A stretch of 64,000 nucleotides of DNA from Burkholderiaceae bacterium (lineage in GTDB: Bacteria; Pseudomonadota; Gammaproteobacteria; Burkholderiales; Burkholderiaceae_C), in the NCBI GenBank assembly GCA_026125795.1, contig JAHCKM010000001.1, positions 930,001 to 994,000 of the forward strand, written 5' to 3'. The first letter of the stretch is position 1. The number at the start of each line of letters is the position of its first letter. The translations under genes were made by a program, and so were the position numbers. The notes below the pieces were generated by a model, which was not told the DNA's origin, did no database searches, and saw only the letters and a list, made by a program, of their open reading frames with translations. Below are positions 13,167 through 62,678 of the stretch, piece by piece.

Positions 13167-13183
13167 GAACCTAGTCTAGGTTC
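13167..13183. repeat. 17-bp perfect inverted repeat
   Basis: GAACCTAG-T-CTAGGTTC is an 8-bp perfect inverted repeat about a single T. It lies between the convergent Bug and hydrolase genes, where no promoter is expected. The short spacing looks more like a dimeric protein site than a terminator. Confidence 0.4.
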
Positions 13184-13274
13184 GCAGCTTCTGACCCGAG
13201 CCTGACCCGACGCAGGATCCTTCGTTCCTTCCCGGCGGCGACCCGCGCTGCACGGCGCGGCGCGCCCACCGTGG

Positions 13275-14234: not shown

Positions 14235-14289
14235 GGTGGTCTCTCCTTGCGGCCATTGGCCGGAACTGTTGCGCCAGCCGACGCAACCT

Positions 14290-14785: not shown

Positions 14786-14798
14786 GGCCGGACTCTGC

Positions 14799-37881: not shown

Positions 37882-37889
37882 GCGCGCGC

Positions 37890-39050: not shown

Positions 39051-39061
39051 GATTCCGTCGC

Positions 39062-39865: not shown

Positions 39866-39901
39866 TGTCCGGCCGCATCCTGATCGCCGCGGAGCGGCCC
39901 C

Positions 39902-41917
39902 ATGTTTAGCAGGATCCTCATTGCCAACCGCGGCGAGATCGCCTGCCGCATCGCGCGCACCTGCCGCCGCCTGGGCATCGCCACCGTCGGCGTGCATTCG
40001 AGCGCCGACCGCGACGCGCTGCACACGGCCGAGGTCGACCGGTCGATCGGCATCGGCGGCGCCAGCGCGACCGAAAGCTACCTGCGCATCGACGCCGTGA
40101 TCGACGCCGCCCGCCGCGCCGGCGCGCAGGCCATTCACCCGGGCTACGGCTTCCTCGCCGAGAACCCCGCGTTCGCGCGCGCCGTCGAGGCGGCCGGCCT
40201 CGTCTTCGTCGGCCCGACCGCGGAGACGATCGAGCGGCTGGGCCACAAGGCGCAGGCCAAGGCCGAGGCGCGCGCCGCCGACGTGCCGGTGCTCGAAGGC
40301 GGCGAACGGGCCAGCGCCGACGCGGCCGTGGTGGCCGGCTGGGCCCGTGCGCTGGCCGAGCCGGTGCTGCTAAAGCCGGCGGCCGGCGGTGGCGGCAAAG
40401 GCATGCACGTGGTGCGCGATGCGGCGGCGCTCGAAGGCGCCATCGGCACCGCGATGCGCGAGGCGCGCAGCGCCTTCGGCGACCCGGCGCTGATCGTCGA
40501 GCCCTACATCGAGCGCGGCCGCCATGTCGAGGTGCAGGTCGCCGGCGACGGCCGCGGCGAGGTGATCCACCTGCTCGAGCGCGAGTGCACGCTGCAGCGT
40601 CGGCACCAGAAGCTGATCGAGGAAGCGCCGGCCGCGCCGCTGCCCGCCGGCCTGCGCGAACGCCTGCTCGACGACGCGGTGCGCCTGGCGCGCCGGCTCG
40701 ACTACCGCGGCGTGGGCACAGTGGAGTTCCTCGTCGCCGGCGACCGCGCCTGGTTCCTCGAAGTGAACCCGCGGCTGCAGGTCGAGCACCCGGTCACCGA
40801 GGAGATCACCGGCATCGACATCGTCGAGCTGATGCTGCGCGTGGCCGCCGGTGAGGGCCTGCCGCTGCGCCAGCATCAGGTCGTGCAGCGCGGCCACGCG
40901 GTCGAGGCGCGGCTGTGCGCGGAAGACGCGGCGCTCGACTTCCTTCCCGCCACCGGGCGCATCGCTTCGCTCGCCTTCCCGCCGTCGGGCGTGCGCATCG
41001 AGACCGGTGTACGCGCCGGCTCGGAGGTGACGCCGCACTACGACTCGCTGCTCGCCAAGCTCGTCGTCCATGCCGACGACCGCGCCGGCGCGCTCGACCG
41101 GCTCGGCGCGGCGCTCGGCCGCACGCAGGTGCTCGGCGTCACCACCAACCAGGCCTTCCTGCAGGGCCTGCTCGCGCTGCCCGCCACGCGCGACGCGAGC
41201 TTCCACACGCGCAGCGTCGACGAGGTGCTGGCCGCGCAGCGCGAAGCGGCCGCGCAGGTGCCGGCCGAGATCGCCGCTGCCGCCGCGGCCTGGTGGCTGG
41301 CCGACGAGCGCCGCCGCAGCCTCTTCGGTGCCTGGTCGTCGGCCGACGTCACCGGCTGGCAGATGCACGCCGGCGACGACCCGCTGAGCGCCGTGCCCGC
41401 AGTGCTGCTGCGCGATGGCACCCGGCTGCGCCCGGTGCGCTTCGGGCAGGCCGACGGCGATGGCGCGCTGACGGTGCAGGTGGACGATGCGCGCGTGCGC
41501 ATCGCGCTGCGCGAGCTGGAGCCCGGCGCCGGCGACGGGCGCTGGCGGCTCGCCGTCGGCGACGGCCTCGAGACGCTCGGGATCGCGCGCGAGGGCGACG
41601 CGCTGTTCGTGCAGGCGCGCGGCCAGGCCCACACGCTCGAAGCGGTCGCCTACCTGACGCAGGCCGGCGCGGCCAAGGGCACCTCGGGCGAGCTGCGCAC
41701 GCCGATGATGGGCACCATCCTCGCCACCCATGCCGAAGTCGGCCAGCCGCTGCGCGCGGGCGACGTGGTGGTGACGATGGAATCGATGAAGATGGAACTG
41801 AAGATCTGCGCCGAGCACGACGGCGTCCTCGAGAGCCTGACGGTCTCCGCCGGCCAGACCGTCGAGCGCGGCCGCGTCGTCGCCGTCGTCGCCGCGGCGG
41901 CGACGGGCGCTGCCTGA
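39902..41917 (+). CDS. Acyl-CoA carboxylase alpha subunit (biotin carboxylase plus biotin carrier)
   Basis: 671 residues. N-terminal biotin carboxylase 'MFSRILIANRGEIACRIART' with 'IHPGYGFLAENPAFA', ATP-grasp loop 'KPAAGGGGKGMHVV', 'EPYIERGRHVEVQV' and 'LEVNPRLQVEHPVTE'; then a linker domain and a C-terminal biotinyl domain with the modified Lys near residue 630 in 'TMESMKMELKI'. It carboxylates its own biotin with bicarbonate and ATP and passes CO2 to the beta subunit (36274). A carbonic anhydrase closes the operon. Confidence 0.94.
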   Translation: MFSRILIANRGEIACRIARTCRRLGIATVGVHSSADRDALHTAEVDRSIGIGGASATESYLRIDAVIDAARRAGAQAIHPGYGFLAENPAFARAVEAAGLVFVGPTAETIERLGHKAQAKAEARAADVPVLEGGERASADAAVVAGWARALAEPVLLKPAAGGGGKGMHVVRDAAALEGAIGTAMREARSAFGDPALIVEPYIERGRHVEVQVAGDGRGEVIHLLERECTLQRRHQKLIEEAPAAPLPAGLRERLLDDAVRLARRLDYRGVGTVEFLVAGDRAWFLEVNPRLQVEHPVTEEITGIDIVELMLRVAAGEGLPLRQHQVVQRGHAVEARLCAEDAALDFLPATGRIASLAFPPSGVRIETGVRAGSEVTPHYDSLLAKLVVHADDRAGALDRLGAALGRTQVLGVTTNQAFLQGLLALPATRDASFHTRSVDEVLAAQREAAAQVPAEIAAAAAAWWLADERRRSLFGAWSSADVTGWQMHAGDDPLSAVPAVLLRDGTRLRPVRFGQADGDGALTVQVDDARVRIALRELEPGAGDGRWRLAVGDGLETLGIAREGDALFVQARGQAHTLEAVAYLTQAGAAKGTSGELRTPMMGTILATHAEVGQPLRAGDVVVTMESMKMELKICAEHDGVLESLTVSAGQTVERGRVVAVVAAAATGAA

Positions 41918-41948
41918 ACCACCCCCACCGACAACCGGAGACACGAGC

Positions 41949-42743
41949 TTGGACTACAAGACCATCCGCCTCACGCGCCAGGGCGAGCACATCGCCCGCC
42001 TGACGTTCGCGCGACCCGAGATCCAGAACGCGATCAGCATGGACGTTGTGCGCGAGATGCTGCATGCGATCGCCGCGCTCGGCGCCGACGCGAAGCTGCG
42101 CGCGGTGGTGCTGACCGGCGAAGGCAAGTCGTTCTGCGCCGGCGGCGACCTGACGTGGATGCAGACGGTGCTGAAGCAGAGCCGTGCGCAGCGCATCGCC
42201 GACTCGCGCCCGCTCGCCGACCTGTTCTACGAACTCGACCGCCTGCCCAAGGTGCTGATCGGCCGCATCAACGGCCCGGCCACCGGCGGCGGCTTCGGCA
42301 TGACCTGCATCTGCGACGTGGTCGTCGCGGCCAGCACCGCGCGCTTCTCGCTCACCGAGGCGCGGCTCGGGCTCGTGCCGGCGAACATCGGCCCCTACGT
42401 CGCGCGCCGCATCGGCCTGGCGCGCTCGCGCCGCTACGGGTTGACGACGCAGTTCATCGACGCCGCGCAGGCCGAGCGCATCGGGCTGGTCGATCGGGTC
42501 GTCGCGCCCGAGGAACTGGACCGCGCCGTCGACGAGGAACTCGACCTCGTGCTGTCGCTGCCGGCGAGCTCGATCGCCGCGACCAAGAAGCTGTTCAACG
42601 ACGTGCACGGCCGCCCGCCGCGCGACTGCATGGACTACACCGCCAACGCGCTGGCCGACGCCTGGGAGACGCCCGAGGCGGCCGAGGGCATCGCCGCCTT
42701 CCTCGGCAAGCGCGCGGCGAACTGGAAAGCCTCCCGTCCCTGA
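41949..42743 (+). CDS. Enoyl-CoA hydratase, methylglutaconyl/isohexenylglutaconyl-CoA type
   Basis: 264 residues with a TTG start (41949), supported by CCGGAG 8 bases before it. 'ARPEIQNAISMDVV', 'GKSFCAGGDLTWMQTV' (the CAGGDLxWM motif is typical of LiuC/AtuE), 'INGPATGGGFGMTCICDVVV', 'SLTEARLGLVPANIGPYV' with Glu at the catalytic position. It would hydrate the product of the carboxylase, i.e. a 3-methylglutaconyl-CoA analogue. The TTG start may limit its translation. Confidence 0.9.
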   Translation: MDYKTIRLTRQGEHIARLTFARPEIQNAISMDVVREMLHAIAALGADAKLRAVVLTGEGKSFCAGGDLTWMQTVLKQSRAQRIADSRPLADLFYELDRLPKVLIGRINGPATGGGFGMTCICDVVVAASTARFSLTEARLGLVPANIGPYVARRIGLARSRRYGLTTQFIDAAQAERIGLVDRVVAPEELDRAVDEELDLVLSLPASSIAATKKLFNDVHGRPPRDCMDYTANALADAWETPEAAEGIAAFLGKRAANWKASRP

Positions 42744-49819: not shown

Positions 49820-51025
49820 TCACTTGTCGGCGAGGAAGTCCGACGCCCGCTCGAACTTTCCGGTGGCGACGTTGGCTTTCAGCAGCAGCGGCCGCGTGCC
49901 GCTCTGCCGGATGTTCGGGCCGAAGCTCAGCGGCGCCATGATGCCGTCGCTCTGGAAATTCTTCGTCTGCTCGAGCTTCTGGACCAGGCAGGCCCGCGTC
50001 AGGTTGCGGCCGCAGGCCTGCAGCGCCGACTCCAGCAGCATGCCCGCGACGGACGCGGTGAGCGAGTAGCGGTTCATCGCCTTCACGTCGTCCGCACTCA
50101 GGTACTTGTAGGCCAGCGCGTTCAGGCGGCCGATGCCTTGCGTCTCGGTGTCGGTGATCGGCGGCACGTAGTCGGCCACCAGCAGGCCGTCGGCGGCGCT
50201 GCCGGCGAGTTGCAGGACTGGCCCCAGGTGCGACGGGTGCGCCGCCAGCCGCATCACGTTCATGCCGTTCTTCTGGATCTCCTTGAGCATGGTCGCGGTC
50301 TCGGTGATGATGCCGCCCACCAGCACGAAGCTTGCACCGGCCTTTTGGACCGCCAGGATCTCGGCCGAGAAGTCCTTCGCCCCGCGCTTGTAGGGGATGT
50401 CGGCGACGCTCGAGATGCCCGCGGCCTTGAGCGCCGCGTCGTAGCCGCACTTGACGTCGGCGCCGAAGTCGTCGTCCTGGTAGATGAGCGCGAACTTGGC
50501 CGCCTGCAGCTTGCGCGTGGCGATCAGGTGCTTCATCACCGCCGAGATCTCCTGGCAGTAGGTCGCACCGATGTTGAACACCGTCTTGCGCGGCGGATTG
50601 AAGTGCGCGCCGGCAACGGCCGCGAAATTGATGGCGGGGATCTGCGCTTCCTCGATCGTCGGCATCATCGCCACCAGATGCGACGAGCCGGACGTGCCGA
50701 TGACGGCGAACACCTTGTCGACGTCGATCAGCTTCTTGATCGCCTGGACGGAACGTTGCGGCACGTAGCCGTCTTCTTCGACGCGCAGTTCGATCTTGCG
50801 CCCGTGGATGCCGCCGCGTGCGTTCACGTCCTTCTCCCAGACGCGCAGCGCGATCACCGCGGCCTTGCCGATCAGGCTCGGCGGCCCGGTTTGCGGCATC
50901 ACGCCGCCGAGCACGATGCGGTCGTCGAACACGCCCGGGTCGGCGGACAGGGCAGGCGTGGACGCGAGTAGTCCGAACAAGCCGGCGGCCAGCGGTGCGA
51001 CAAGGCGGCGAAGGATGCGGTGCAT
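49820..51025 (-). CDS. livK: ABC importer periplasmic binding protein (LivK type)
   Basis: 401 residues. Signal peptide 'LVAPLAAGLFGLLASTPALS' then 'ADPGVFDDRIVLGGVMPQTG', the start of the type I binding fold. 'VFAVIGTSGSSHLVAMMPTI' forms the ligand hinge. Last gene of the second Liv operon. Only distantly similar in pattern to the binding protein at 19151, so the two importers may see different ligands. Confidence 0.9.
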   Translation of the reverse strand: MHRILRRLVAPLAAGLFGLLASTPALSADPGVFDDRIVLGGVMPQTGPPSLIGKAAVIALRVWEKDVNARGGIHGRKIELRVEEDGYVPQRSVQAIKKLIDVDKVFAVIGTSGSSHLVAMMPTIEEAQIPAINFAAVAGAHFNPPRKTVFNIGATYCQEISAVMKHLIATRKLQAAKFALIYQDDDFGADVKCGYDAALKAAGISSVADIPYKRGAKDFSAEILAVQKAGASFVLVGGIITETATMLKEIQKNGMNVMRLAAHPSHLGPVLQLAGSAADGLLVADYVPPITDTETQGIGRLNALAYKYLSADDVKAMNRYSLTASVAGMLLESALQACGRNLTRACLVQKLEQTKNFQSDGIMAPLSFGPNIRQSGTRPLLLKANVATGKFERASDFLADK

Positions 51026-51052: not shown

Positions 51053-52090
51053 TCAGAAGCGGAAGGGCCAGTGGGTCCAGTAATGCTTGAGGTCGCGCCA
51101 GCGGCCGACCAGGCCGTCGGGTTCGAAGCGCAGGAACAGGACGATCGCGAGGCCGTAGACGACGCCCTTCATCTCGTGCGCGGCGGTCGAGAACAGTCCG
51201 GACCCCAGGCTGCTGGCGAGCAGACCCAGACCTTCGTTCAGCACGAAGATGAAGACCGTTCCCATCAGGGCGCCGGCCACCGAGCCGAGGCCGCCGACGA
51301 TGAGCATCGACAGCGCCTCGATCGAGATCAGCAGGCTGAAGCCGTCGACGTTCAGGTAGCGCGTGTAGTAGGCCAGCAACCCGCCGGCGACGCCGGTGTA
51401 GAACGCGCTGACCATGAAGGCCAGCAGCTTCCAGCGCACCAGGTCGATGCCCATCGCGCGGGCGGCGATGTCGTGGTCGCGGATCGCCATCAGCGCGCGG
51501 CCGACGCGGCTGCGCAGCAGGTTCAGCGTGACGAACACCGCCAGCACCAGCACCGCCAGCACGACGTAGTGGAAGCCGCCTTCGGTGGCCAGTGCCGTGC
51601 CGAACAAGGCGGGCTGCGGCACCGACAGACCCTCGGAACCGCCGGTGAGGCTGCCGCCGTTGAGGATCAGGTGGTTGATGATCACCGCGAACGCCATGGT
51701 GGTGATCGCGAGGTACAGGCCCTTCAGTCGCAGCGAGGGGATGCCCACCACCAGGCCGGCCAGCGCCGCGCAGGCGCCGCCGGCGAGCAGGCACATCGGC
51801 ATCGGCCAGCCCAGGCGGTTGGCGACGATGCCGGTGGCGTAGGCGCCCACCGCCAGGAAGCCGGAGTGGCCGAGCGAGATCAGGCCGGTGTTGCCCGTCA
51901 GCAGGTTCAGGCCCAGCACGCCGACGGCGGTGATCATCATCGCCAGCAGCAGCGTGGTGAAGTACTTCCCGATCAGCAGAGGCGCGACGGCCAGCCCCGC
52001 CACGAGGACCACGGACCACACGACGACTGGAACCGAGTCGGTCAGCGCCAGGAGCTGGCGATAGTCTTCCTTGAAGTTGCCGCTGCGCAT
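51053..52090 (-). CDS. livM: ABC importer permease (LivM type)
   Basis: 345 residues, about ten membrane segments, with 'LTGNTGLISLGHSGFLAVGA' and coupling region 'RSRVGRALMAIRDHDIAARA', then 'GLGSVAGALMGTVFIFVL'. Inner-membrane part of the second importer; 6 bases separate it from livH. Confidence 0.93.
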   Translation of the reverse strand: MRSGNFKEDYRQLLALTDSVPVVVWSVVLVAGLAVAPLLIGKYFTTLLLAMMITAVGVLGLNLLTGNTGLISLGHSGFLAVGAYATGIVANRLGWPMPMCLLAGGACAALAGLVVGIPSLRLKGLYLAITTMAFAVIINHLILNGGSLTGGSEGLSVPQPALFGTALATEGGFHYVVLAVLVLAVFVTLNLLRSRVGRALMAIRDHDIAARAMGIDLVRWKLLAFMVSAFYTGVAGGLLAYYTRYLNVDGFSLLISIEALSMLIVGGLGSVAGALMGTVFIFVLNEGLGLLASSLGSGLFSTAAHEMKGVVYGLAIVLFLRFEPDGLVGRWRDLKHYWTHWPFRF

Positions 52091-52096
52091 TGGGGG

Positions 52097-52969
52097 TCAG
52101 ACTCGTTCGATGTCGGGGCGGCCGAACAGACCGTACGGGCGCACCATCAGCACCACGAGGATCAGCACGAAGCCGGCGATTTCCTTCATGCCGCGGCCGA
52201 TGTAGCCCTCGGACATGTTCTCCACCACGCCGATCAGCACGCCGCCGAGCGCGGCGCCGAACACCGAGTCCAGCCCGCCGAGTATCACCGCCGGGAAGCT
52301 GCGCAGCCCGGTGAGCCACATGCCGGGCTCGAGGTCGTAGATCACGCCGACCAGCACGCCGGCGATCGCGGCGAGCATCGCCGACAGCGCCCACGAGACC
52401 GCGAAGATGCGCTTCACGTCGATGCCCATGAGCAGCGCCACCGTCTGCAGGTTGGCGGTGGCGCGCATCGCGATCCCCACGCGCGAGTAGCGGAAGAACG
52501 CCCACAGCCCGGCCACCACCGCGGCCATGATGCCCAGCGCGTACAGCTGCGCTGGATAGACCCCGGCCGGGCCGAAGCGGATGGGCTCGCGCGACAGGCC
52601 GGTGGCCAGCGGCATCGGGTCGGCGCCCCAGACCAGCACGACCAGCGAGCGGATGATCACCGCCAGGCCGATGGTCACCATGACGGTGGAAAACACCGGC
52701 CGGCCGAGCATCGGCCGGATCAGCAGCACCTCGACGAGCAGCCCGATGAGCACGGAGGCGACGATGGCCGCGAACAGCAGCGGCCAGAACGAGAGGCCGA
52801 GGGTGCCGACGAGCGTGAAGGAGATGTAGGCGACCAGCATCATCAGCTCGCCCTGCGCGAAGTTCACCACGCCGGTGGCGCGGTAGATCATCGCGAAGCC
52901 CATGCCGATGAAGCCGTACACCAGGCCCGCGGCAATGCCCGAGACGAGCAGCTGGAGGAAGAAGTCCAT
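52097..52969 (-). CDS. livH: ABC importer permease (LivH type)
   Basis: 290 residues. 'SGIAAGLVYGFIGMGFAMIY', 'GVVNFAQGELMMLVAYISF', 'RVGIAMRATANLQTVALLMG' and 'GLDSVFGAALGGVLIGVVEN'. Its ATG shares one base with the ligase stop (TGATG), so ligase and permease are coupled just as in the first importer operon. Confidence 0.93.
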   Translation of the reverse strand: MDFFLQLLVSGIAAGLVYGFIGMGFAMIYRATGVVNFAQGELMMLVAYISFTLVGTLGLSFWPLLFAAIVASVLIGLLVEVLLIRPMLGRPVFSTVMVTIGLAVIIRSLVVLVWGADPMPLATGLSREPIRFGPAGVYPAQLYALGIMAAVVAGLWAFFRYSRVGIAMRATANLQTVALLMGIDVKRIFAVSWALSAMLAAIAGVLVGVIYDLEPGMWLTGLRSFPAVILGGLDSVFGAALGGVLIGVVENMSEGYIGRGMKEIAGFVLILVVLMVRPYGLFGRPDIERV

Positions 52970-54849
52970 CAGGCCGTCCCGCCGCCGTAGATCAGCTCGA
53001 TTTCCTTGGCGAACTTCTTGCCGATCGCGCTGCGGCGCACCTTCTGCGTGGCGGTCAGTTCGCCGTCGTCGTGGTCCAGTTCCTTCTCGAGGATGACGAA
53101 CTTGCGGATGTTCTCGACCCGCGCGAAGAGCTTGTTGACGCGCCGCACCTCGGCGTCCACCAGTTCGCGCACGTCGGCGAGCTGCGCCAGGCTGCGGTAG
53201 GTGGTGTAGGCCAGGCGCTTGTCCTGCGCCCATTTGCCCACCGTCTCGTAGTCCACCTGGATCAGCGCCGACAGGAAATGACGGCCGTCGCCCAGCACGA
53301 TGGCTTCGCGGATGTAGATGCTGTCCTTGAGCGCGTTCTCGATCTCCGAGGGCGAGATGTTCTTGCCGCCGCTGGTGATGATGATCGCCTTCTTGCGGTC
53401 GACGATCATCAGCTCGCCGTTGGGCGCCAGCGCGACCACGTCGCCGGTGTGCAGCCAGCCGTCCTGCACGGTGAGGGCGGTGGCGCTGCCGTCGTGGATG
53501 TAGCCCTTGAAGACGGCCGGGTGCTTGACGATGAGTTCGCCGTCCTCGGCGATCTTCCAGTTCAGGCCCTCGATCGGCGTGCCGGTGGCGCCCAGACGCG
53601 CGGCCCCGGCATGCTGGTGGAAGATCACGCCGCCCGACTCGGTCATGCCGTAGACCTGGTACACGGGCAGACCGAGGATGCGGAAGAACTTGAGCACCTC
53701 GGGCGAAACGCTCGCGCCGCCGCAGAAGCCGCAGCGCATGCGGTCCAGGCCGGTGAACTTCTGCAGGTTGCGGAACATCAGCAGCCAGAGCACGAGAAAG
53801 TGCAGGCGCTCGGCGAAGCTGCGTTCGCCGCCGCGTTGCTCGACGCGCTCGAACAGCGCCTTGCCCGAGGCGTAGCAGCGCTCGAAGGCCCAGCGCTGGA
53901 AGCGGGTGGCGTCCTGCATGCGCATTACGATGCCCTGCTGCAGCTTCTCCCAGATGCGGGGCACGCCGAGGAACACGGTGGGCGCGATCTCGCGCAGGTT
54001 GATCTGCACCGTGTCGATGGACTCGGCGTAGTTGACGACGCCGCCGGTCATCATGTGCATCACGGTGGAGAAGGCGCGCTCGGCCACGTGGCACAGCGGC
54101 AGGTAGCACACCACCGCGGTGTTCGTGCGGTCGAGCCCGAAGTGGCGGCGCAGCTTGTCGGTGGTGACGAGCAGGTTGCGGTGCGACAGCATCGCGCCCT
54201 TGGGCGGCCCGGTTGTGCCGGAGGTGTACACCAGCATGCAGGTGTCGTCGGGTTGCGTCGCCGCGATGCCGTCGTCGAAGGCGCGCGCCTGCGCGGGCGA
54301 CGCCGCGGCATGGCGGTCACCCAGCTCGAGGACCTCGTCGAAGGAGAGCAGCCTGTCGCGCGGGTAGTTGCGCATGCCCTTCATGTCGACCGCGATGATC
54401 TTCGCGACCTCGGGCAGCCCGACCTCGTGCCTGGCCATCGCGTCGAGCACCTTGTCGACCTGCTCCTGGTCGCCGCAGACGACGAAGCGGCTGTTCGAGT
54501 GGTGGACGATGTACTGGAGTTCGGGCCAGGGGTTGGTCGGGTAGATGCCCACCGTCACGCCGCCGATCGCCTGCGTGGCGAGGTCGGCGTACATCCACTC
54601 GGGCGTGTCCTCGCTGGCGATGGCCAGCCGCTCGCCACGGCGGAAGCCGAGGTGCAGCAGGCCGAGTGCGAAGCGCCGGGCCGTGTCGTGGTACTGCCGC
54701 CAGCTCACGCGGTTCCAGATGCCGAGGTCCTTCTCGCGCAAGGCCAGCGCGTCGGGCGTGGCCCGCGCCCAGTGCCGCAGCAGCCGGGGAAGGGTGTGCT
54801 CGCCGGCGTTCAGCGCCGCATCGAGGGCGGGGTCGGGTTGCGTGCTCAC
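52969..54849 (-). CDS. Long-chain-type acyl-CoA synthetase embedded in the second importer operon
   Basis: 626 residues. P-loop 'LVYTSGTTGPPKGAMLSH' near residue 205, 'QVYGMTESGGVIFHQHAG', 'LHTGDVVALAPNGELMIVDR', 'ITSGGKNISPSEIENAL' and C-terminal 'DDGELTATQKVRRSAIGKKF'. Standard motifs, so active. Located between livG and livH with overlapping junctions at both ends. Together with the matching gene at 22392 this makes a conserved importer-plus-ligase cassette. Confidence 0.92.
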   Translation of the reverse strand: MSTQPDPALDAALNAGEHTLPRLLRHWARATPDALALREKDLGIWNRVSWRQYHDTARRFALGLLHLGFRRGERLAIASEDTPEWMYADLATQAIGGVTVGIYPTNPWPELQYIVHHSNSRFVVCGDQEQVDKVLDAMARHEVGLPEVAKIIAVDMKGMRNYPRDRLLSFDEVLELGDRHAAASPAQARAFDDGIAATQPDDTCMLVYTSGTTGPPKGAMLSHRNLLVTTDKLRRHFGLDRTNTAVVCYLPLCHVAERAFSTVMHMMTGGVVNYAESIDTVQINLREIAPTVFLGVPRIWEKLQQGIVMRMQDATRFQRWAFERCYASGKALFERVEQRGGERSFAERLHFLVLWLLMFRNLQKFTGLDRMRCGFCGGASVSPEVLKFFRILGLPVYQVYGMTESGGVIFHQHAGAARLGATGTPIEGLNWKIAEDGELIVKHPAVFKGYIHDGSATALTVQDGWLHTGDVVALAPNGELMIVDRKKAIIITSGGKNISPSEIENALKDSIYIREAIVLGDGRHFLSALIQVDYETVGKWAQDKRLAYTTYRSLAQLADVRELVDAEVRRVNKLFARVENIRKFVILEKELDHDDGELTATQKVRRSAIGKKFAKEIELIYGGGTA

Positions 54850-55628
54850 GCGGCCTTCGCTCCGCCCAGGTAGGCGTCGATCACGGCCGGGTCGGCCGAG
54901 ACGTCGGCGGGCGTGCCTTCGGCGATCTTGCGGCCGAAGTTGAGCACGCAGATGCGGTCCGAGATGTCCATCACGATGCCCATGTCGTGTTCGACCATCA
55001 GCACGGTGATGCCGAGCTCGTCGCGGATGTCGAGCACGAAGCGCGCGATGTCCTCGGTCTCCTCGGTGTTCATGCCCGATACCATCTCGTCGAGCAGCAG
55101 CAGCTTGGGCTCGGTGGCCAGCGCGCGGCCGAGCTCGACGCGCTTCTGCATCCCGTAGGACAGCGCGCCCACCGGCATGTCGCGGATGTCCTCGATCTCG
55201 AGGAAGTCGATGATCTCCTCGACCTTGCGCCGGTGCTGCAACTCCTCGCGCCGCGCGCGGCCGAAGAACCAGGCGGCATCGAAGACGTTGCTGCGCATGT
55301 GGCAGTGGCGCCCGACGAGCAGGTTCTGCACCACCGTGGCGTGCTTGAAGACCGCCAGGTTCTGGAACGTGCGGCCGATGCCGAGGGCGGCCATGCGGTG
55401 CGCCGGCGTGGCCGTGATCGGGCGGCCGTCGAAGTGCACCGTGCCGCCGCTCGGCGGCACGACCCCGCTGATCATGTTGAAGGTGGTGGTCTTGCCCGCG
55501 CCGTTGGGCCCGATCAGCGAGTAGATCTCGCCGCGCCGCACATGGAAGCCGACGCCGGCGACGGCCTCCACGCCGCCGAAGCGCTTGGTGAGGTTCTCGA
55601 CCTTCAGCAGGGCGTGGTCTTGGTGCAT
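54846..55628 (-). CDS. livG: ABC importer ATPase (LivG)
   Basis: 260 residues from ATG 55628. 'LTKRFGGVEAVAGVGFHVRR', Walker A 'IGPNGAGKTTTFNMISG', 'GRTFQNLAVFKHATVVQNLL', signature 'LSYGMQKRVELGRAL', Walker B 'LLLLDEMVSGMNTEETED'. Walker B is followed by Glu-Met-Val rather than Glu-Pro-x. 8 bases after livF, 4-base overlap with the ligase. Confidence 0.93.
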   Translation of the reverse strand: MHQDHALLKVENLTKRFGGVEAVAGVGFHVRRGEIYSLIGPNGAGKTTTFNMISGVVPPSGGTVHFDGRPITATPAHRMAALGIGRTFQNLAVFKHATVVQNLLVGRHCHMRSNVFDAAWFFGRARREELQHRRKVEEIIDFLEIEDIRDMPVGALSYGMQKRVELGRALATEPKLLLLDEMVSGMNTEETEDIARFVLDIRDELGITVLMVEHDMGIVMDISDRICVLNFGRKIAEGTPADVSADPAVIDAYLGGAKAA

Positions 55629-55636
55629 CGCGACGC

Positions 55637-56428
55637 TCAGGACAGCCAGCGCTTGCGGCGCTTGTAGTGCTTGACCTCGCGCATGTTCTTGCGCGAGCCG
55701 CCTTCGCCGAAGCCGAGATAGAACTCGCGCACGTCCTCGTTGCGCAGCAGCGCCGGCGCGGGGCCGTCGAGCACGATGCGGCCGTTCTCCATGATGTAGC
55801 CGTCGTCGGCGACGCTCAGCGCCATCTGCGCGTTCTGTTCGACGAGCAGGATGCTGACTCCCTCCTGGCGGCACAGGCGGGTCACGATGCCGAAGATCTC
55901 CTCGCAGATCTGCGGTGCCAAGCCGAGCGTGGGCTCGTCGAGCATCAGCAGCTTCGGGCTCGACATCAGCGCGCGTCCGATCGCCACCATCTGCTGTTCG
56001 CCGCCGGAAAGGTAGCCCGAGACGGTCGCGCGTTTGGCGGTCAGGCGCGGAAACATGTCGTAGACGCGCGCCAGGCCGCGACGCGACTCGGCCAGGCTGC
56101 GCGTGTAGCCGCCCATCAGCAGGTTTTCCTCGACGGTGAGCTGGTCGAACAGGCGCCGCCCCTCGGGAACCATGACGATGCCGGCGCGGACGATGCGGTC
56201 CGGCGTCATGCCGCGCAGCGGCCGGCCCTCGAAGCTGATGTCGCCCCCCTTGACTTCGCCGTCCTCCGGGTAGAGCACGCCGCTGATCGCCTTCAGCGTG
56301 GTTGATTTGCCCGCGCCGTTCGCGCCGAGCAGCGCGACGATGCGGCCGCTCGCCAGAGACAGCGACGCTTCGCGCACGGCTTCGATCGTGTTGTCGTAGA
56401 CGATCTGAACGTTGGTCAGGTTCAGCAT
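55637..56428 (-). CDS. livF: ABC importer ATPase (LivF)
   Basis: 263 residues from ATG 56428. '[18 protein letters not shown]', 'VPEGRRLFDQLTVEENLLMG', '[16 protein letters not shown]', 'LLMLDEPTLGLAPQICEEIF'. The C-terminal tail '[11 protein letters not shown]' to 'REVKHYKRRKRWLS' repeats that of the LivF at 18244, absent from amino-acid LivF proteins I know. First gene of the second importer operon, with a candidate operator 58 bases upstream. Confidence 0.93.
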   Translation of the reverse strand: MLNLTNVQIVYDNTIEAVREASLSLASGRIVALLGANGAGKSTTLKAISGVLYPEDGEVKGGDISFEGRPLRGMTPDRIVRAGIVMVPEGRRLFDQLTVEENLLMGGYTRSLAESRRGLARVYDMFPRLTAKRATVSGYLSGGEQQMVAIGRALMSSPKLLMLDEPTLGLAPQICEEIFGIVTRLCRQEGVSILLVEQNAQMALSVADDGYIMENGRIVLDGPAPALLRNEDVREFYLGFGEGGSRKNMREVKHYKRRKRWLS

Positions 56429-56598: not shown

Positions 56599-57384
56599 CT
56601 ACTTCGCGAAGTTCTGGCGGAAGTCCGGCTTGCGCTTCTCGAGAAACGCGCGCACGCCTTCCTTCGACTCGGCGGTTTCGTAGTAGAGGCTGAGAGCCTG
56701 CATGCCCAGGCTGCCGATGCCGCGGATGTGCTCGGTGGACGCGTTGAACGAGCGCTTGGCGATCGCGATCGCGGTCGGGCTCTTCTCGACCAGTTCGCGG
56801 CCCCACTTGGCGACCTCGGCGTCGAGCTGGTCGTGCGGCACCACCACGTTGCACAGGCCCATCGCCAGCGCCTCCTGCGCGTTGTAGCGCCGGCACATAT
56901 ACCAGATCTCGCGCGCCTTCTTCTCGCCCACCACCGCGGCGAGGTAGGCCGTGCCCCAGCCCGGATCGACCGACCCGACCTTCGGCCCTACCTGGCCGAA
57001 CACCGCCTTGTCGGAGGCAATGGTCATGTCGCACAGCGTCGCGAGCACGTTGCCGCCGCCGATGGCGTAGCCCTGCACGCGCGCGATCACCGGCTTGGGT
57101 ACATCCCGAATGACACTGTGCAGCTCCTCGATCGGCAGGCCGGCCGTGCCGCGGCCGTCGTACTGGCCCGAGTGTGCGGACTGGTCGCCGCCGGTGCAGA
57201 ACGCGCGGTCGCCCGTGCCGGTGAGCACGATGGCGGCGATGTTCTTGTCCCAGCCGGCCTTCAGCATGGCCTGCAGCATCTCCTCCACGGTCTGGCCGCG
57301 GAAGGCGTTCATGACGCTCGGGCGGTTGATCGCGATCGTCGCGATCTGGTCGCGCTCCTCGTAGACGATGTCGGTGTAGTTCAC
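56599..57384 (-). CDS. badI: 2-ketocyclohexanecarboxyl-CoA hydrolase (BadI)
   Basis: 261 residues, strikingly close to BadI of Rhodopseudomonas palustris as I recall it: 'TGDRAFCTGGDQSAH', 'IRDVPKPVIARVQGYAIGGG', 'AVFGQVGPKVGSVDPGWG', 'REIWYMCRRYNAQEAL', 'TAIAIAKRSFN' and tail 'FLEKRKPDF'. Catalytic Ser138 and Asp140 (SVDP loop) are present. BadI hydrolyses the ring of 2-ketocyclohexanecarboxyl-CoA to pimelyl-CoA. The adjacent SDR would make the ketone. Substrate here may be a substituted ring. Followed by a terminator. Confidence 0.92.
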   Translation of the reverse strand: MNYTDIVYEERDQIATIAINRPSVMNAFRGQTVEEMLQAMLKAGWDKNIAAIVLTGTGDRAFCTGGDQSAHSGQYDGRGTAGLPIEELHSVIRDVPKPVIARVQGYAIGGGNVLATLCDMTIASDKAVFGQVGPKVGSVDPGWGTAYLAAVVGEKKAREIWYMCRRYNAQEALAMGLCNVVVPHDQLDAEVAKWGRELVEKSPTAIAIAKRSFNASTEHIRGIGSLGMQALSLYYETAESKEGVRAFLEKRKPDFRQNFAK

Positions 57385-57394
57385 GCGTCCGCCC

Positions 57395-58189
57395 TCAGCC
57401 GATCATGCTGTAGCCGCCGGAGACCGACAGCACCTGGCCGGTCACGTGGCCCGCCTTGCCCGAGGCGAGGAAGACCACCGCGTTCGCGATGTCCTGCGGC
57501 CGGCCCACCTTGCGCAGCGGCAGCGCCTTGGCCACCTTCTCGAGCTGCTCGGGCGTGAACATGCTGTCGGCGTTGGTCCACATGCTGCTGCCGCCGACCT
57601 CGTCGCTCGTCGCCGGGATGGTGACGCCGGGGCAGACCACGTTGCAGCGGATGCCGTAGCGGCCGTTCTCCCTGGCGATGGTCTTCATGAAGCTGTTGAT
57701 CGCCGCCTTGACGCCGCCGTAGACGGCCTCGCGCGGCTCGCCCTGGCGGCTCGCGTCGGAACTGATCGAGACGATCGCGCCGCCGTTCTGCTTGATCATC
57801 GTGTCGAGCGCCGTCTTGGTGCAGTTGAGCACGCCGACGTAGTTGATGTCGATCACCTTGCGCCAGAAGTCGGGAGTCGTCTGGGTGAAGAACATCAGGT
57901 TGTCCCAGCCGACGTTGTTGACGAGCACGTCGACGCGGCCGTGCTTGTCGGTCGCGGCCTTGAACATCGCCTGCACCTGCTCGAGGTTGGTCACGTCGGT
58001 CTTGACCACCTGGACCGACGCTGCGCCGAGCTTCCTGGCGAACTCGGCGGTCTTCTCGGCCTGCGCCGTGTCGATGTCGCCGACCGTGATGTGCGCACCT
58101 TCGCCGGCGAAGGCCAGCACGATCGCACGGCCGATGTTCGAGCCGCCGCCGGTGACGACCACCGACTTGTTCTTCAGTTCCAGATCCAT
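57395..58189 (-). CDS. badH: SDR dehydrogenase, 2-hydroxycyclohexanecarboxyl-CoA dehydrogenase-like (BadH)
   Basis: 264 residues from ATG 58189. 'VVVTGGGSNIGRAIVLAF' (cofactor motif 13-20), Asp38 in 'TVGDIDTAQ' for NAD, 'NNVGWDNLMFFTQT', catalytic Ser143, Tyr157 and Lys161 ('AVYGGVKAAI'), and 'HVTGQVLSVSGGYSMIG'. The residue pattern and the position directly before badI match the badH-badI order of cyclohexanecarboxylate degradation. It oxidises a 2-hydroxy ring CoA ester to the beta-keto form. A candidate operator lies 63 bases upstream, so badHI probably has its own promoter. Confidence 0.85.
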   Translation of the reverse strand: MDLELKNKSVVVTGGGSNIGRAIVLAFAGEGAHITVGDIDTAQAEKTAEFARKLGAASVQVVKTDVTNLEQVQAMFKAATDKHGRVDVLVNNVGWDNLMFFTQTTPDFWRKVIDINYVGVLNCTKTALDTMIKQNGGAIVSISSDASRQGEPREAVYGGVKAAINSFMKTIARENGRYGIRCNVVCPGVTIPATSDEVGGSSMWTNADSMFTPEQLEKVAKALPLRKVGRPQDIANAVVFLASGKAGHVTGQVLSVSGGYSMIG

Positions 58190-58251
58190 CGAGAAGTTCC
58201 TTTCGTCGGAGGTCGCAGGCCTCGGCGAGGCCACCGCCTGCAGTATAGCTG

Positions 58252-58569
58252 TCAAACGGTAGTTAGAGCCGCGGGCGTCGACTTCCGGCCCAATCCTTCG
58301 GCCTCGCGGTAGGCCGAGCGAACCTGCGGATCGGGGCTGCGGTCGGCTTGCTCGCGGCAGTACAGCCAGTGCTCGGACGGAACGTCTGCCTGCACGCGCA
58401 CGGCACAGAGCAGCCGCTGCAGCGCGAGCCGGCGATGACCCATCGCCACGCTGCGGCCGAGCAGCAGCAGGGCCGACGCGCGCGCCGCCTCCAGCGCATC
58501 GCCGCCGGCCTGCGTGCGGCCGGCAGCGGCCACGGCGCGCTTCCAGGCGCGTGTGTCGGGGCGTGCCAC
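58252..58569 (-). CDS. Small protein of unknown function after the MeaB-thioesterase gene
   Basis: 105 residues from GTG 58569, one base after the stop of the fusion gene. Rich in Ala and Arg, no membrane segment and no motif I recognise; a helical stretch 'RASALLLLGRSVAMGHRRLA' is followed by 'SEHWLYCREQADRSPDPQVR'. Tight spacing supports translation, but GC bias makes chance frames common here. Its 3' end overlaps the candidate operator of badHI. Confidence 0.45.
   Translation of the reverse strand: MARPDTRAWKRAVAAAGRTQAGGDALEAARASALLLLGRSVAMGHRRLALQRLLCAVRVQADVPSEHWLYCREQADRSPDPQVRSAYREAEGLGRKSTPAALTTV
58253..58266. promoter_or_regulatory. Candidate TetR operator upstream of badH-badI
   Basis: Minus strand CTAACTACCGTTTG matches the perfect palindrome at 56487 in 11 of 14 positions and lies 63 bases before the badH start. 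It suggests that badHI is controlled together with the mutase operon. Confidence 0.5.
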
Positions 58570-58570
58570 G

Positions 58571-59806
58571 TCAGCGGACGGGGGGAAGCTGGTTCGAGGC
58601 TTCGGCGGCGCTGCCCTCGGGGCCGCCGAGCACGGGGCGCCCGGTCAGGTAGACCGTTCCCGACAGGCTGGCCACATGCTCGCCACCGACCTCCCGGCGC
58701 ACGTCGACGCGGTAGACCGCGAGCTTGCGCGAACGCGACACCTCGCTCGCCCGCGCCTCCAGCCATTCGCCCTCCACCGCTCCGGCGGAAATGCTGATGT
58801 TGCCGTCGACCAGCGCCGCGATCGCGCCGTGCGAGTTGCAAGCCAGGCCCAGGGCCATGTCGGCCAGCGAGAAGATCGCGCCGCCGTGACAGCGGCCGTT
58901 GAAGTTCAGGTGCTGCGGACCCACGCGCATGCGCACCGCCGCGCTGCCGGCGCTGCCGTCGACGAGTTCCAGGCCCATGTGGCGGCCGTAGGCGTCGCCG
59001 GCAAGCGCGCGGCGGACCAGTTGCACTGCGGCGCGGTCGGCGGCGGTCGCCGCGGTCCGCGTGCCGCGCGCCTGGCGTTGCTCGAGCCAGTCGCACAGTT
59101 CGTCCAGCCCGCTGCCGGTGGTGGCGACCGTGCGCAGCACCGGCGGGCGCGGCGCGTCGCCGCGGCGCAGCTTCAGCATCGCCAGCAGTTCGCGTTCGGT
59201 GCGCTGGGCGTCCGGAAGGTCGGCCTTGCTCACGACGAACGCGTCGGCGATCTCGAGGATGCCGGCCTTGATGGCCTGGATGTCGTCGCCCAGCCCGGGC
59301 GGGCAGACGACCAGCCGCGTGTCGGCGATCCGCGTGATCTCGACCTCCGACTGCCCGGCGCCGACGGTTTCGACGATCACGGTGTGGAAGCCCGCCACGT
59401 CGAGCAGGTCGACGACATCGCCGGCCGAGCGCGCGAGCCCGCCCAGGTGCCCGCGCGAAGCCATCGAGCGGATGAACACGTTCGGGTCGGACTGCTGCAG
59501 GCCCATGCGGACGCGGTCGCCCAGCACGGCGCCGCCGGTGATCGGGCTCGAGGGATCGATCGCCACGACGGCGACGGTGCGGCCGCGCGCGCGCAGGGCG
59601 CCGATCAGCCCCGCCACGAGGGTCGACTTGCCGCCGCCGGGCGGCCCGGTGACGCCGATCACGTGCGCCGCGCCGACGTGCGCCGCGACTTCGGCGCGGA
59701 CCGCCGCGGCGCCGTCGCTGTCGTTCTCGAGCGTGGTGATCGCGCGCCCGAGGCTGCGCCGGTCGCCCGTGCGCAGCCGTTCGAGCCAGCCGGCCGGCGC
59801 GTTCAT
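58571..59806 (-). CDS. MeaB-like mutase chaperone GTPase fused to a hotdog thioesterase
   Basis: 411 residues. Residues 1-285 are a MeaB/ArgK G3E GTPase: P-loop 'GVTGPPGGGKSTL' (51-63), 'AIDPSSPITGGAVLGDRVRM', 'VIVETVGAGQSEVEI', 'VVSKADLPDA'. Residues about 290-400 are a PaaI-type hotdog: 'QHLNFNGRCHGGAIFSLADM' and 'SISAGAVEGEWLEARASEVS'. MeaB loads and protects B12-dependent mutases. The thioesterase could discharge stalled or wrong CoA esters. Its ATG shares a base with the mutase stop (TGATG). A MeaB-thioesterase fusion beside 2-hydroxyisobutyryl-CoA mutase is something I recall (MeaH) but cannot verify. Confidence 0.9.
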   Translation of the reverse strand: MNAPAGWLERLRTGDRRSLGRAITTLENDSDGAAAVRAEVAAHVGAAHVIGVTGPPGGGKSTLVAGLIGALRARGRTVAVVAIDPSSPITGGAVLGDRVRMGLQQSDPNVFIRSMASRGHLGGLARSAGDVVDLLDVAGFHTVIVETVGAGQSEVEITRIADTRLVVCPPGLGDDIQAIKAGILEIADAFVVSKADLPDAQRTERELLAMLKLRRGDAPRPPVLRTVATTGSGLDELCDWLEQRQARGTRTAATAADRAAVQLVRRALAGDAYGRHMGLELVDGSAGSAAVRMRVGPQHLNFNGRCHGGAIFSLADMALGLACNSHGAIAALVDGNISISAGAVEGEWLEARASEVSRSRKLAVYRVDVRREVGGEHVASLSGTVYLTGRPVLGGPEGSAAEASNQLPPVR

Positions 59807-61497
59807 CAGACCACGGCGAGCGGGTGGCCGAAGCCGAGCTCGCGCCGCAGCGTGCCGCAGATCTCGCCATGCGTCGCGCCCGCCTCGGCCGAGGCCACGA
59901 CCTGCGCGAACACGTTGCCGTCGTTCGACTGCGCCGCGCCCGCCAGCGCACCGAGCGCCCGCTCGACCGCGGCCGACGAACGCTCGGCCTTGAAGCGGCT
60001 CAGGCTCGCGACCTGGGCCTCCATGCGTGCGCGGTCCGGGTAGTCGAGGGCAGGGTAGTCGGCGGGGTCTTCGTCGACCCGGTACTTGTTGACGCCGACC
60101 ACGACCTCGTCGCCCGCATCGACGCGCTGCTGGAACGCCAGCGCCGAGTCGCCGATCATCTTCTGCACCAGCCCCTGCTCGACGGCGCGGTACATGCCGC
60201 CGGCCTCGTCGATGCGCGCGATGATGGCCTCGATCCTGCGCTCCATCGCGTCGGTCAGCGACTCGACGTAGTACGAGCCGCCGAGCGGGTCGATCACGTC
60301 CGTCAGGTGCGCTTCCTCGCGCAGGATGTTCTGCGTCGCCACCGCGATGCGCGCCGCCTCCGCGGTGGGGGTGGAGAACACCTCGTCGTAGCCGTCGGTG
60401 TGCAGCGACTGCAGGCCGCCGAAGATGCCGGCCATCGCCTGTGCGGTGACGCGTGCGACGTTGTTCAGCGGCTGCTGGCGCGTCAGGTCCACGCCCGAGG
60501 TCTGGCCGTGGAACTTGAAGCGCCACGAACGCGGATCCTTCGCGCCCAGGCGCTCCCGGCACAGCTTGGCCCAGATGCGGCGGCCCGCGCGGAACTTCGC
60601 CACCTCCTCGAAGAAGCTGACCGAGATGTCGAAGAAGAAGGTGAAGCGCGGCAGGAAGCGGTCCGGGTCCATGCCGCGGGCGATGCAGTCTTCGGCGTAC
60701 TGCACCGCCGAGGCGAGCGTGAAGGCCATCGCTTCGGCCGGGGTGGCGCCGGCCTGCTGCATGTGCTGGCCGACTATCGACAGCGGGTTCCAGCCCGGCA
60801 GGTGTTCGTTGCAGAAGGCGATGTGATCGACCGCGATGCGCCGCGCGCCCTGCAGCGCGATGCGGAAGAACATGTGGTTGGCGACGAAGTGCGAGATGCA
60901 GTCGCTCTGGTTCGAGGTGCCGGTGATCTTCGTCCACGGCACGCCGCGGCGCCTGGCCACCGCGAGCTCGAAGGCGAGCAGCGTGAACGGCGAGGGGTCG
61001 TTCATCGCGGTCGAGAGTTCGCCGATCGGCACGCCGTCGAGCGCGCGCTCCATGTCGCCCACGTGGTTGATGACGGTGCCGCAGGTGCCCAGCAGTTCCA
61101 CCGGCACCTCGTCGGCGTCGTAGCCGCGGAACACCGAGTTGCAGGGGATCAGCGACAGCGCCGAGGCGCCGAGCGCGAGCATCTCTTTCACGCGGGCGTT
61201 GTAGTCCTCGGGAACGCCCAGGCCGATCAGCTGGCGCTGCGACCAGCTGCGGCCGCGGTACATGCTCGGGTAGATGCCGCGGGTGAACGGGTATTCGCCG
61301 GGAAAGCCGATGCTGGCGCCGAAGTGGGCACCCGACCAGTCGCGCGGCGTGTACAGCGGCTTGATCTCGATGCCCGAGCGGTTGCGCGGCACCGTCGCGC
61401 CGGGCGCGCCGGCGTCGAAGTCGCGCTGCCAGCGCGCCTGGGCGGCGGCGAGTTCGGCGTCGGCCAAATGGGCCAGCGGGGGAAGGGGCTTGTTCAT
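59806..61497 (-). CDS. B12-dependent acyl-CoA mutase, large subunit, atypical substrate pocket
   Basis: 563 residues, the length of isobutyryl/2-hydroxyisobutyryl-CoA mutase large subunits; TIM barrel only, with the B12 domain on the next gene. Family marks: '[20 protein letters not shown]', 'RGYDAD', '[20 protein letters not shown]' with the general-acid-type His245, '[14 protein letters not shown]', '[17 protein letters not shown]', '[17 protein letters not shown]', '[11 protein letters not shown]'. Hand alignment to remembered sequences gives Leu90 for MCM Tyr89, Asn207 for MCM Arg207, Gln244 for Tyr243, and 'IPCNSV' (117-122) in place of the near-invariant 'FDLPT/FDMPT' region. Probably a mutase with a new substrate; loss of activity is possible but operon context argues against it. 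Confidence 0.92.
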
Positions 61498-61934
61498 GCC
61501 GGGGTTCCTTGTCGGGCGTCACGGGCGTGGTGGGCGTGGCGCGCCTGGGCCAGCGCGCGCACGGTGGCCACGACATCGTCGAGCGCGGTGCCGGGGTGGA
61601 ACACGCGCGCCACGCCGGCGTCGAGCAGCATCTGCTCGTCCTTGGCCGGGACGATGCCGCCGACGATCACGCCGACGTCGTCGAGCCCGGCGGCGCGCAG
61701 CGCGTCCATCAGCCGCGGCACGATGAGGTGGTCGGTGGCGAGCGAGGAAACGCCGATCACGTCGGCGTCCTCCTCGGTCGCCAGCTTCACGACGGTGGCG
61801 ATCTCCTGCCACGGCGGGGTGTAGATCACTTCCATGCCGGCGTCGCGCAGCGTGGCGGCGATGACCCGGCTGCCACGGTCGTGGCCGTCGAATCCGATCT
61901 TGGTGACGATGACCTTGGGTGGGCCTTCACGCAT
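61494..61934 (-). CDS. B12-dependent acyl-CoA mutase, small (cobalamin-binding) subunit
   Basis: 146 residues. Cobalamin motif DxHxxG at 16-21 ('[20 protein letters not shown]') with lower-axial His18, then '[20 protein letters not shown]' (SxL) and '[20 protein letters not shown]' (GG). Rossmann-like B12 domain as in IcmB/HcmB. It overlaps the large-subunit start by 4 bases (ATGA) and the TetR stop by 8, so regulator, small and large subunits are one transcript. A His/Ala-rich tail ends the protein. Confidence 0.94.
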
Positions 61935-62574
61935 CTTGGGCTTCCTTGAGGAACGAGACGAATCGGGCCGCCAGCGAGCGGGGCGTCTGCCGGCCGGCCG
62001 GGTCGAACCAGACGCGCGCCCAGTTGAGCGCGCCCAGCAGCATCAGGCGCAGCGTGCGGCGGTCGGCGCCCGCCGGCAGGGGCAGCGCGGCGACGAGGGC
62101 GCGGAACTCGTCCTCGTAGCCGGCGCGCAGCTCGCGCAGCCGGTCGGCGGCGGCGGGCACGTCCTGCGGATGCACGCGGATCAGGACCTGCGCGTAGTCG
62201 CTGCTGCGCAGCACCGTCTCCAGATGGGCGCGGCAGGCCGCCTCGAGGCGATGCCACGGATCGGCGCGCGAGTCGGCAGCGCTCGCCGCGCGCACCGCGG
62301 CCGCGAGTTCGCCGACGCCGGCCTCGTAGACGGCGACGAGCAACTCTTCCTTCGACGCGAAGTGGTAGTACACCGAACCCGGCAGCATTCTCACCGCCAA
62401 CGCGATGTCGCGCATCGACGTCGCCGCGTAGCCGCGCTCGGCGAACAGCGCCGCCGCAGCATCGAGCAGTTCGGGCTGGCGGTTGTCGGAGCGCGGGGCT
62501 CGGGCGGTGCGAACGGCAGGCACGGGAAGGCGGTCGGTCGGGTTGAAAAACAATCGTTCGTTTGGTTTAATCAT
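61927..62574 (-). CDS. TetR family transcriptional regulator
   Basis: 215 residues from ATG 62574 (GGGAGC 8 bases ahead); ATG 62598 and GTG 62523 are alternatives. Helix-turn-helix 'MRDIALAVRMLPGSVYYHFA' with 'SKEELLVAVYEAG', preceded by 'RQPELLDAAAALFAERGYAA'. The C-terminal ligand domain ends 'LLGALNWARVWFDPAGRQTP', a pattern seen in acyl-CoA-responsive TetR proteins. First gene of the mutase operon. A motif-matching site lies in its first codons, so it probably represses itself and, via the other copies, the neighbouring operons. Confidence 0.92.
   Translation of the reverse strand: MIKPNERLFFNPTDRLPVPAVRTARAPRSDNRQPELLDAAAALFAERGYAATSMRDIALAVRMLPGSVYYHFASKEELLVAVYEAGVGELAAAVRAASAADSRADPWHRLEAACRAHLETVLRSSDYAQVLIRVHPQDVPAAADRLRELRAGYEDEFRALVAALPLPAGADRRTLRLMLLGALNWARVWFDPAGRQTPRSLAARFVSFLKEAQDA
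62551..62564. promoter_or_regulatory. Candidate TetR autoregulatory operator
   Basis: Minus strand CAAACGAACGATTG matches the perfect palindrome at 56487 in 10 of 14 positions. It lies 11-24 bases inside the tetR frame, or upstream if GTG 62523 is the start, and 115 bases before the divergent Baeyer-Villiger gene. Confidence 0.45.
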
Positions 62575-62630: not shown

Positions 62631-62678
62631 TTCGCTGGATGCCGTGCGTCTGCGCGCCGGCTGGAGAGAATGGAACCC

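Follow-up and report, generated by a model that had tools for sequence, protein, structure and literature searches.

Quaternary carbons resist β-oxidation, and a B12-dependent mutase that moves the thioester off such a carbon is, to our knowledge, one of the few solutions. Adenosylcobalamin mutases take a hydrogen from the carbon beside the α-carbon and move the thioester carbonyl onto that carbon. In 2015, Kitanishi, Cracan and Banerjee reportedly characterised an authentic pivalyl-CoA mutase (PCM) from Xanthobacter autotrophicus Py2, and we take Xaut_5043/5044 to be this two-subunit pivalyl-CoA/isovaleryl-CoA mutase. Interconversion of pivalyl-CoA and isovaleryl-CoA is also ascribed to IcmF in two reports (PMC9974510, PMC10481361), and a PDB comparison returned solved IcmF complexes with both thioesters. 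Here we analysed 64,000 nucleotides of a Burkholderiaceae bacterium (GenBank assembly GCA_026125795.1, contig JAHCKM010000001.1, positions 930,001 to 994,000; hereafter the window), which encode a B12-dependent acyl-CoA mutase in two genes:

59806..61497, minus strand: acyl-CoA mutase large subunit, putative PCM-type clade, 563 amino acids.
61494..61934, minus strand: B12-binding small subunit, 146 amino acids, with a DGHDRG motif (TIGR00640 132.3 bits, cut-off 57.45).

Judging from sequence comparison, we consider it probable that this mutase is PCM-type, with acyl-CoAs that carry a quaternary α-carbon as its presumed substrates in this organism. Its two reading frames overlap by 4 bases and are separate genes, not a fusion. 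Both products are members of the B12-dependent acyl-CoA mutases, the large subunit scoring 509.6 in TIGR00641 (cut-off 303.8). A scan of genome contigs gave at least 485 stretches encoding relatives of any kind; the best 80, at 63–87% identity, were kept and include Proteobacteria, Actinomycetota, SAR324 and Rokubacteria, with many metagenome bins among them. The clade alignment holds 90 rows, or 88 distinct ones, since L046/L122 and L048/L123 (our locus numbers) are each one gene. Identity to the window's large subunit is 63–87% among the distinct rows, and about 42% or less for the nearest other mutases. Within an order-level sample of 399 genomes, eight (own genome included) had a member at ≥67% identity, all other matches at E 1e-100 being ≤40%. 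Four of 274 genomes sampled at class level (own included, one a fragment) had a member at ≥64%, other listed matches being ≤42%, and a sample of 398 genomes at phylum level gave no match beyond the gene of the window itself at E 1e-150. No relative was found in a scan of viral contigs.

In two trees a branch with an SH-aLRT value of 100 set the clade apart from all other rows. One held 38 clade members (a subsample of the 90) among 90 rows, the other 24 among 39. Both were quick trees without bootstrap in which long branches meet, so that the joining order of the classes is unsure, and reference sequences of ethylmalonyl-CoA mutase, stand-alone isobutyryl-CoA mutase and IaaG were left out. By these sequence comparisons the clade is sharply separate from methylmalonyl-CoA mutase (MCM), 2-hydroxyisobutyryl-CoA mutase (HCM) and IcmF. 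The enzyme shares with MCM the predicted fold and the cobalamin and catalytic residues, but reaches only 445.6 bits against the PRK09426 cut-off of 876; IcmF is one fused chain, and the query scores 204.1 bits against the IcmF cut-off of 1500. The same genome encodes its own MCM (1009.4 bits against 876 with the large-subunit half alone, the first 539 residues being matched), its own IcmF (1838.5 bits against 1500) and an HCM (96.4% identity with 4r3u across 503 residues), and the gene studied here is therefore not needed for those reactions. The tree and the separate genomic copies rule out an MCM, HCM or IcmF under another name. Another distinct group of large subunits came up in the same comparisons: L160 (1626-3676, on a plasmid of Diaphorobacter HDW4B), L028 and L030 have Ala at the MCM Tyr243 position and keep Arg207. 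In L160 the gene lies in a run with an enoyl-CoA hydratase, a small subunit, a CoA transferase and a GTP-binding protein, and the group is perhaps a dicarboxylyl- or aryl-type mutase.

Of 421 plasmid records that matched the mutase, six did so at 60–80% identity. One of the six, Xaut_5043 from the X. autotrophicus Py2 plasmid pXAUT01, lies within the clade; it shares 67.7% identity with the query across 541 amino acids, and 66 of 71 pocket columns picked by hand are the same in both. The two systems also have in common separate subunit genes and the order TetR-small-large-MeaB-4HBT thioesterase, with ligase genes (two in X. autotrophicus) and ABC transporter genes further on. They differ in the pocket loop (PCCS in X. 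autotrophicus, PCNS in the window), at position 117 (Leu against Ile) and in the thioesterase, which is a separate gene in X. autotrophicus and is fused to MeaB in the window. Moreover, within 8 kb of the X. autotrophicus mutase there is no BadI like the window's, and the short-chain dehydrogenase (SDR) genes of that stretch lie on the opposite strand among coenzyme M epoxide genes. The other mutase on pXAUT01, Xaut_5021, is 83.5% identical to an HCM fragment and is no rival for the PCM name. Within about 42 kb this plasmid (L150, L163) combines the PCM-type cassette with the genes of coenzyme M epoxide metabolism and with an HCM unit that includes an adenosyltransferase gene. A literature search found no text naming PCM genes, most subscription papers being outside its reach, and two PDB comparisons listed no PCM chain among solved structures, an absence that shows little.

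A preliminary description, made from the window's sequence, had proposed an undescribed carbon-skeleton rearrangement. This is not supported: the clade holds Xaut_5043/5044, which we take to be a PCM, and is probably an already known class; the description had itself listed PCM among the classes for comparison. In part the description is supported, since the cluster is separate from MCM, HCM and IcmF and shares Leu90 and a loop that reads Pro-Cys-(Asn/Cys)-Ser.

The residues on which the earlier claim was built (Leu90, Ile117, the loop PCNSV at 118–122, Asn207, Gln244, His245 and His18 of the small subunit) were all confirmed by script, as was K12 and D16 of the small subunit, where DGHDRG begins at position 16. 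The alignment to HCM is indeed gapless through residues 90–127. A one-residue insertion beyond it, N196 (GTSNQSD versus GTIQND), had been overlooked; all 90 clade rows have it, and none of 48 others do. L90, C119, N120, S121, C139, D167, N196, Q197, Q244, H245 and D290 are fixed in all 88 distinct clade rows. N207 and P118 each occur in 87, the odd row at 207 having Leu, and position 117 is Ile in 79 rows and Leu in nine. Asn120 is not universal: L155, L156 and L157, plasmid-borne members that joined the comparison afterwards, have Cys120. The small-subunit pattern TK[ILM]G.DGHDRG was found in 71 of 78 small subunits, and the seven that miss it are three truncated calls, three with Val for Ile and one with Ala for Gly. 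Retention of the cobalamin and catalytic residues (Q197 and H245 throughout the clade; K12, D16 and H18 in the window) next to a rebuilt acyl site was thus borne out.

How the acyl site departs from the other classes can be read column by column. HCM (4r3u) is 39% identical to the query (195 of 501 residues) and has Ile90, Asp117, Gln208 and Tyr where the query has Leu, Ile, Asn and Gln. From MCM the query differs by the extra N196 and by lacking the Tyr/Arg pair; Arg207, with Tyr89, is what we take to be the carboxylate-binding pair of MCM. The loop FD(L/M)PT, which had been called near-invariant, is absent from the clade: FD[LM].T was not found in the query, nor FD[LM][AP]T in any of the 90 clade rows. 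Elsewhere its consensus is FD(L/M)(A/P)T, with Ala (31 of 48 other rows) commoner than Pro (16). Segment 115–125 keeps a length of 11 residues throughout the 90 clade rows and the 52 from other mutases; this constancy over 142 rows, together with the conservation, rules out a misaligned or chance loop. Altogether, 48 fixed differences set the clade apart from other mutases, and in a structure model predicted from a 70-row alignment many of these residues are near the ends of the barrel strands. Leu90, in place of the Tyr, Phe or Ile of other classes, is compatible with a bulkier or wider substrate.

We then compared the surroundings of the mutase within 8 kb at 89 loci, namely the 80 best contig-scan matches, two genomes, six plasmids and the window. 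These counts used identity and coverage thresholds (the window's own ligase falls under the ligase threshold) and home-made gene calling in the relatives, and only 52 of the 89 loci have 4 kb on both sides. The small subunit was present at 84 loci, MeaB at 68 and any of three thioesterase kinds at 47. TetR relatives occurred at 69 of 84 loci, and a MeaB-hotdog domain fusion at 30 of 83. In the window, the mutase genes are flanked by the following:

61927..62523, minus strand: TetR-family regulator, the cassette's first gene (Pfam TetR_N and TetR_C_24 over cut-off).
58571..59806, minus strand: MeaB-type GTPase chaperone with a C-terminal hotdog (4HBT, PaaI-like) thioesterase domain (Pfam MeaB 19-260, 4HBT 303-375).

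A literature search found no MeaB-thioesterase fusion, again with most subscription papers outside its reach. At L036 (10043-10872) the MeaB-thioesterase region was called as two pieces, by a frameshift, a sequencing error or the home-made gene call. After the fusion gene the window's run continues in this order:

58252..58569, minus strand: small open reading frame of 105 amino acids that recurs after MeaB (matches in L036, L037, L040, L041, L043 and L111).
57395..58189, minus strand: SDR dehydrogenase, BadH-like (TIGR03206 216 bits for the frame 57395-58255, under the BadH equivalog cut-off of 431.2).
56599..57384, minus strand: BadI-type cyclic β-ketoacyl-CoA hydrolase, a marginal call (BadI being 2-ketocyclohexanecarboxyl-CoA hydrolase; TIGR03210 468.3 bits, passing the equivalog cut-off of 467.6 by less than 1 bit).
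54846..56428, minus strand: two Liv-type (branched-chain amino acid) ABC-transporter ATPases (ABC_tran in both, BCA_ABC_TP_C in 54846-55628).
52969..54849, minus strand: AMP-forming acyl-CoA ligase, FadD11-like (NF038343 358 bits, under the cut-off of 950), which clusters with ligases from 17 other loci.
51053..52969, minus strand: two Liv-type permeases (BPD_transp_2 in 51053-52090 and 52097-52969).
49820..50932, minus strand: the transporter's periplasmic binding protein (Peripla_BP_6 200.7 bits).

For the relative of the small reading frame in L040, a Pfam and NCBIfam search gave no match.

The thioesterase invites a reading in which mutase and thioesterase free CoA from dead-end branched thioesters and handle no growth substrate. 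Its frequency (47 of 89 loci, fused to MeaB at 30 of 83) and the many cassettes without a recurrent neighbour except their own TetR gene are consistent with such salvage. We consider it improbable, because in the window, X. autotrophicus, Diaphorobacter and Roseovarius the cassette continues into ligase and transporter genes, as uptake and growth predict, and because occurrence in the order is sparse (8 of 399 genomes). Another neighbour bears on a benzylmalonyl-/phenylsuccinyl-CoA-type mutase like IaaGH of anaerobic indoleacetate degradation (PMC8360864). Indolepyruvate ferredoxin oxidoreductase-family genes lie within 8 kb at three of the 89 loci (L074, 11744-15319; L082; L083), and in L091 the cassette is followed by a PaaK-like ligase that is under the PaaK cut-off. 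The Arg207 position, however, is Asn in 87 and Leu in one of the 88 distinct clade rows, and an enzyme of this type is very improbable. On a plasmid of Sphingobium YC-XJ3 (L152, 7744-24959), genes for thiolase, ligase, TetR, small subunit, large subunit and MeaB occur twice in tandem, and insertion sequences both separate the two copies and interrupt them, which suggests a recent duplication.

A possible link to the expected product came from plasmids of Pseudosulfitobacter and Sulfitobacter (Roseobacteraceae), on which one strand carries TetR-small-large-MeaB-thioesterase-TetR-carboxyltransferase-enoyl-CoA hydratase-biotin carboxylase-acyl-CoA dehydrogenase. Their mutase equals the window's at 64 of 71 pocket columns. 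As in leucine breakdown, such a carboxylase and dehydrogenase set is what isovaleryl-CoA would need, and the run lends independent though limited support to isovaleryl-CoA as the product. Compared with solved structures, the plasmid carboxyltransferase scored 612.5 bits with AccD1, 596.8 with 9tps, 595.8 with 9yx0 and 589.2 with methylcrotonyl-CoA carboxylase (MCC) β, versus 428 with geranyl-CoA carboxylase and 261 with the propionyl-CoA carboxylase 1vrg. AccD1 is labelled a probable acetyl-/propionyl-CoA carboxylase in its structure entry; we take it to be the mycobacterial methylcrotonyl-CoA carboxylase. On these scores the plasmid enzyme is likely MCC-type. An acyl-CoA dehydrogenase of related type was found at 10 of the 89 loci, including these plasmids, and a biotin carboxylase at four. 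The window has a comparable module:

36274..42743, plus strand: acyl-CoA carboxylase module of carboxyltransferase, acyl-CoA dehydrogenase, crotonase-fold proteins and biotin carboxylase (Pfam).

Its carboxyltransferase groups with AccD1 (593.9 bits), 9tps (582.4) and MCC (572.6) and not with geranyl-CoA carboxylase (414.6). The module is a possible sink for the mutase product.

Several observations weigh against a PCM-type mutase that feeds such a pathway. The assignment itself depends on Xaut_5043/5044 being the published PCM. Most loci are without a nearby ligase or LivG (each present at 14 of 89, counting any of three ligases), and a thiolase (c12), which isovaleryl-CoA would not need, is present at six. 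The carboxylase link has one independent case behind it: the carboxyltransferase occurs at three loci, and two of these are near-identical plasmids that count once. Moreover 9tps, its second-best solved match and above MCC β, is labelled a propionyl-CoA carboxylase. Isovaleryl-CoA dehydrogenases are not the closest matches of the acyl-CoA dehydrogenase on the plasmids (231.4 bits versus 310.2 for the best match). The window's carboxylase module lies about 17 kb from the mutase and on the opposite strand. Finally, pivalate does not account for BadI and the SDR.

These last two genes occur at five of the 89 loci: the window, the Rubrivivax bins L036, L038 and L039, and the Burkholderiales bin L037. 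They could mean that mutase, SDR and BadI form one alicyclic or terpenoid pathway, in which the substrate is a quaternary-α-carbon acid from BadI-type opening of a gem-dimethyl ring, or 1-methylcycloalkanecarboxyl-CoA. In the window and L036 both genes directly follow the cassette on the same strand, and a flavin monooxygenase gene is divergently adjacent to the window's cassette. But in L037, L038 and L039 two opposite-strand genes separate the SDR-BadI pair from the cassette, 84 of the 89 loci have no such pair within 8 kb, and Diaphorobacter, which has no such BadI in that range, agrees with the window at 71 of 71 pocket columns. We regard this pathway as unlikely. Stated for Rubrivivax-like bacteria, there is a small chance that mutase, dehydrogenase and BadI are a new route in which the B12 radical rearrangement removes the quaternary carbon of an alicyclic acid, such as a gem-dimethyl, terpenoid-derived one; the true substrate would then be a cyclic or ring-derived acyl-CoA outside the range of every known mutase.

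A second use of the same partners would be an HCM-like mutase that turns 1-hydroxycycloalkanecarboxyl-CoA into 2-hydroxycycloalkanecarboxyl-CoA, for SDR and then BadI to convert into a dicarboxylyl-CoA. This is chemically neat, SDR and BadI being enough downstream, and has an open-chain parallel in the acetone genes of D. cetonica, where the neighbouring locus tags 105214-105217 stand for SDR, MeaB, small and large subunit (PMC7888143). The reading is weakened because 84 of 89 loci have no BadI and SDR and because the acid Asp117 of HCM is absent from the clade, all 88 distinct rows having Ile or Leu there. In addition, the dehydrogenase and carboxylase partners seen elsewhere in the clade would be unneeded for a β-hydroxyacyl product, and the genome encodes a true HCM separately. 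We therefore hold it to be improbable.

The same chemistry as in PCM is favoured for the window, because the pocket columns are the same in Diaphorobacter, where no such BadI lies within 8 kb, and because BadI and SDR near the cassette are limited to the window and four close relatives; with modest probability, this lineage uses that chemistry on a different, longer or ring-derived acid. Of the bulky or cyclic acyl-CoA suggested in the preliminary description, bulky fits a quaternary carbon, and cyclic is kept in play by the BadI and SDR neighbours. Likewise, its caveat that the protein might cluster within a characterised class probably applies, provided that Xaut_5043/5044 is the published PCM.

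From the observed gene content, gene order, class membership and pocket residues, and with the fold as predicted, we propose the following sequence for the PCM-type reading. A quaternary-α-carbon acid, pivalate or a longer gem-dimethyl acid, would be imported by the Liv-type ABC transporter, its putative carrier, and activated by the AMP-forming ligase. By adenosyl-radical chemistry the mutase would then shift CO-SCoA off the quaternary carbon and onto an adjacent methyl carbon, presumably in the direction pivalyl-CoA to isovaleryl-CoA. A quaternary α-carbon substrate would hence give a β-branched product that is open to dehydrogenation, and acyl-CoA dehydrogenase and methylcrotonyl-CoA carboxylase may handle it further. 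MeaB would guard the cofactor, and the fused thioesterase probably releases CoA from stalled thioesters.

Other features were seen next to the cassette and just upstream of the window. The divergent flavin monooxygenase that adjoins the cassette (62670-63998; FMO-like over cut-off) is a Baeyer-Villiger-type candidate, and its top NCBIfam match, neopentalenolactone D synthase at 115 bits, is far under the cut-off of 1100. In L120, upstream of the window, glutamate-mutase-type genes at 11758-15048 (MutL, 541 bits; a B12-binding protein; methylaspartate mutase E chain, 518 bits) encode another B12 rearrangement enzyme near the region. Two pairs of predicted proteins with identical starts, at 6340-7995 and 15736-17277 of L120, suggest that a segment was duplicated or that the assembly repeats it.

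Should the clade be PCM, the class would be scattered over several phyla, and its 48 class-specific residues, many near the barrel strand ends, and its one-residue insertion are now listed. Both the fusion of MeaB to a thioesterase and the BadI partners offer leads that can be tested. With BadI and the SDR as ring-opening neighbours, there is still scope for a substrate that is alicyclic or derived from a ring. The enzyme's likely role is to rearrange acids that carry a fully branched carbon, pivalate for example, into a form open to degradation.

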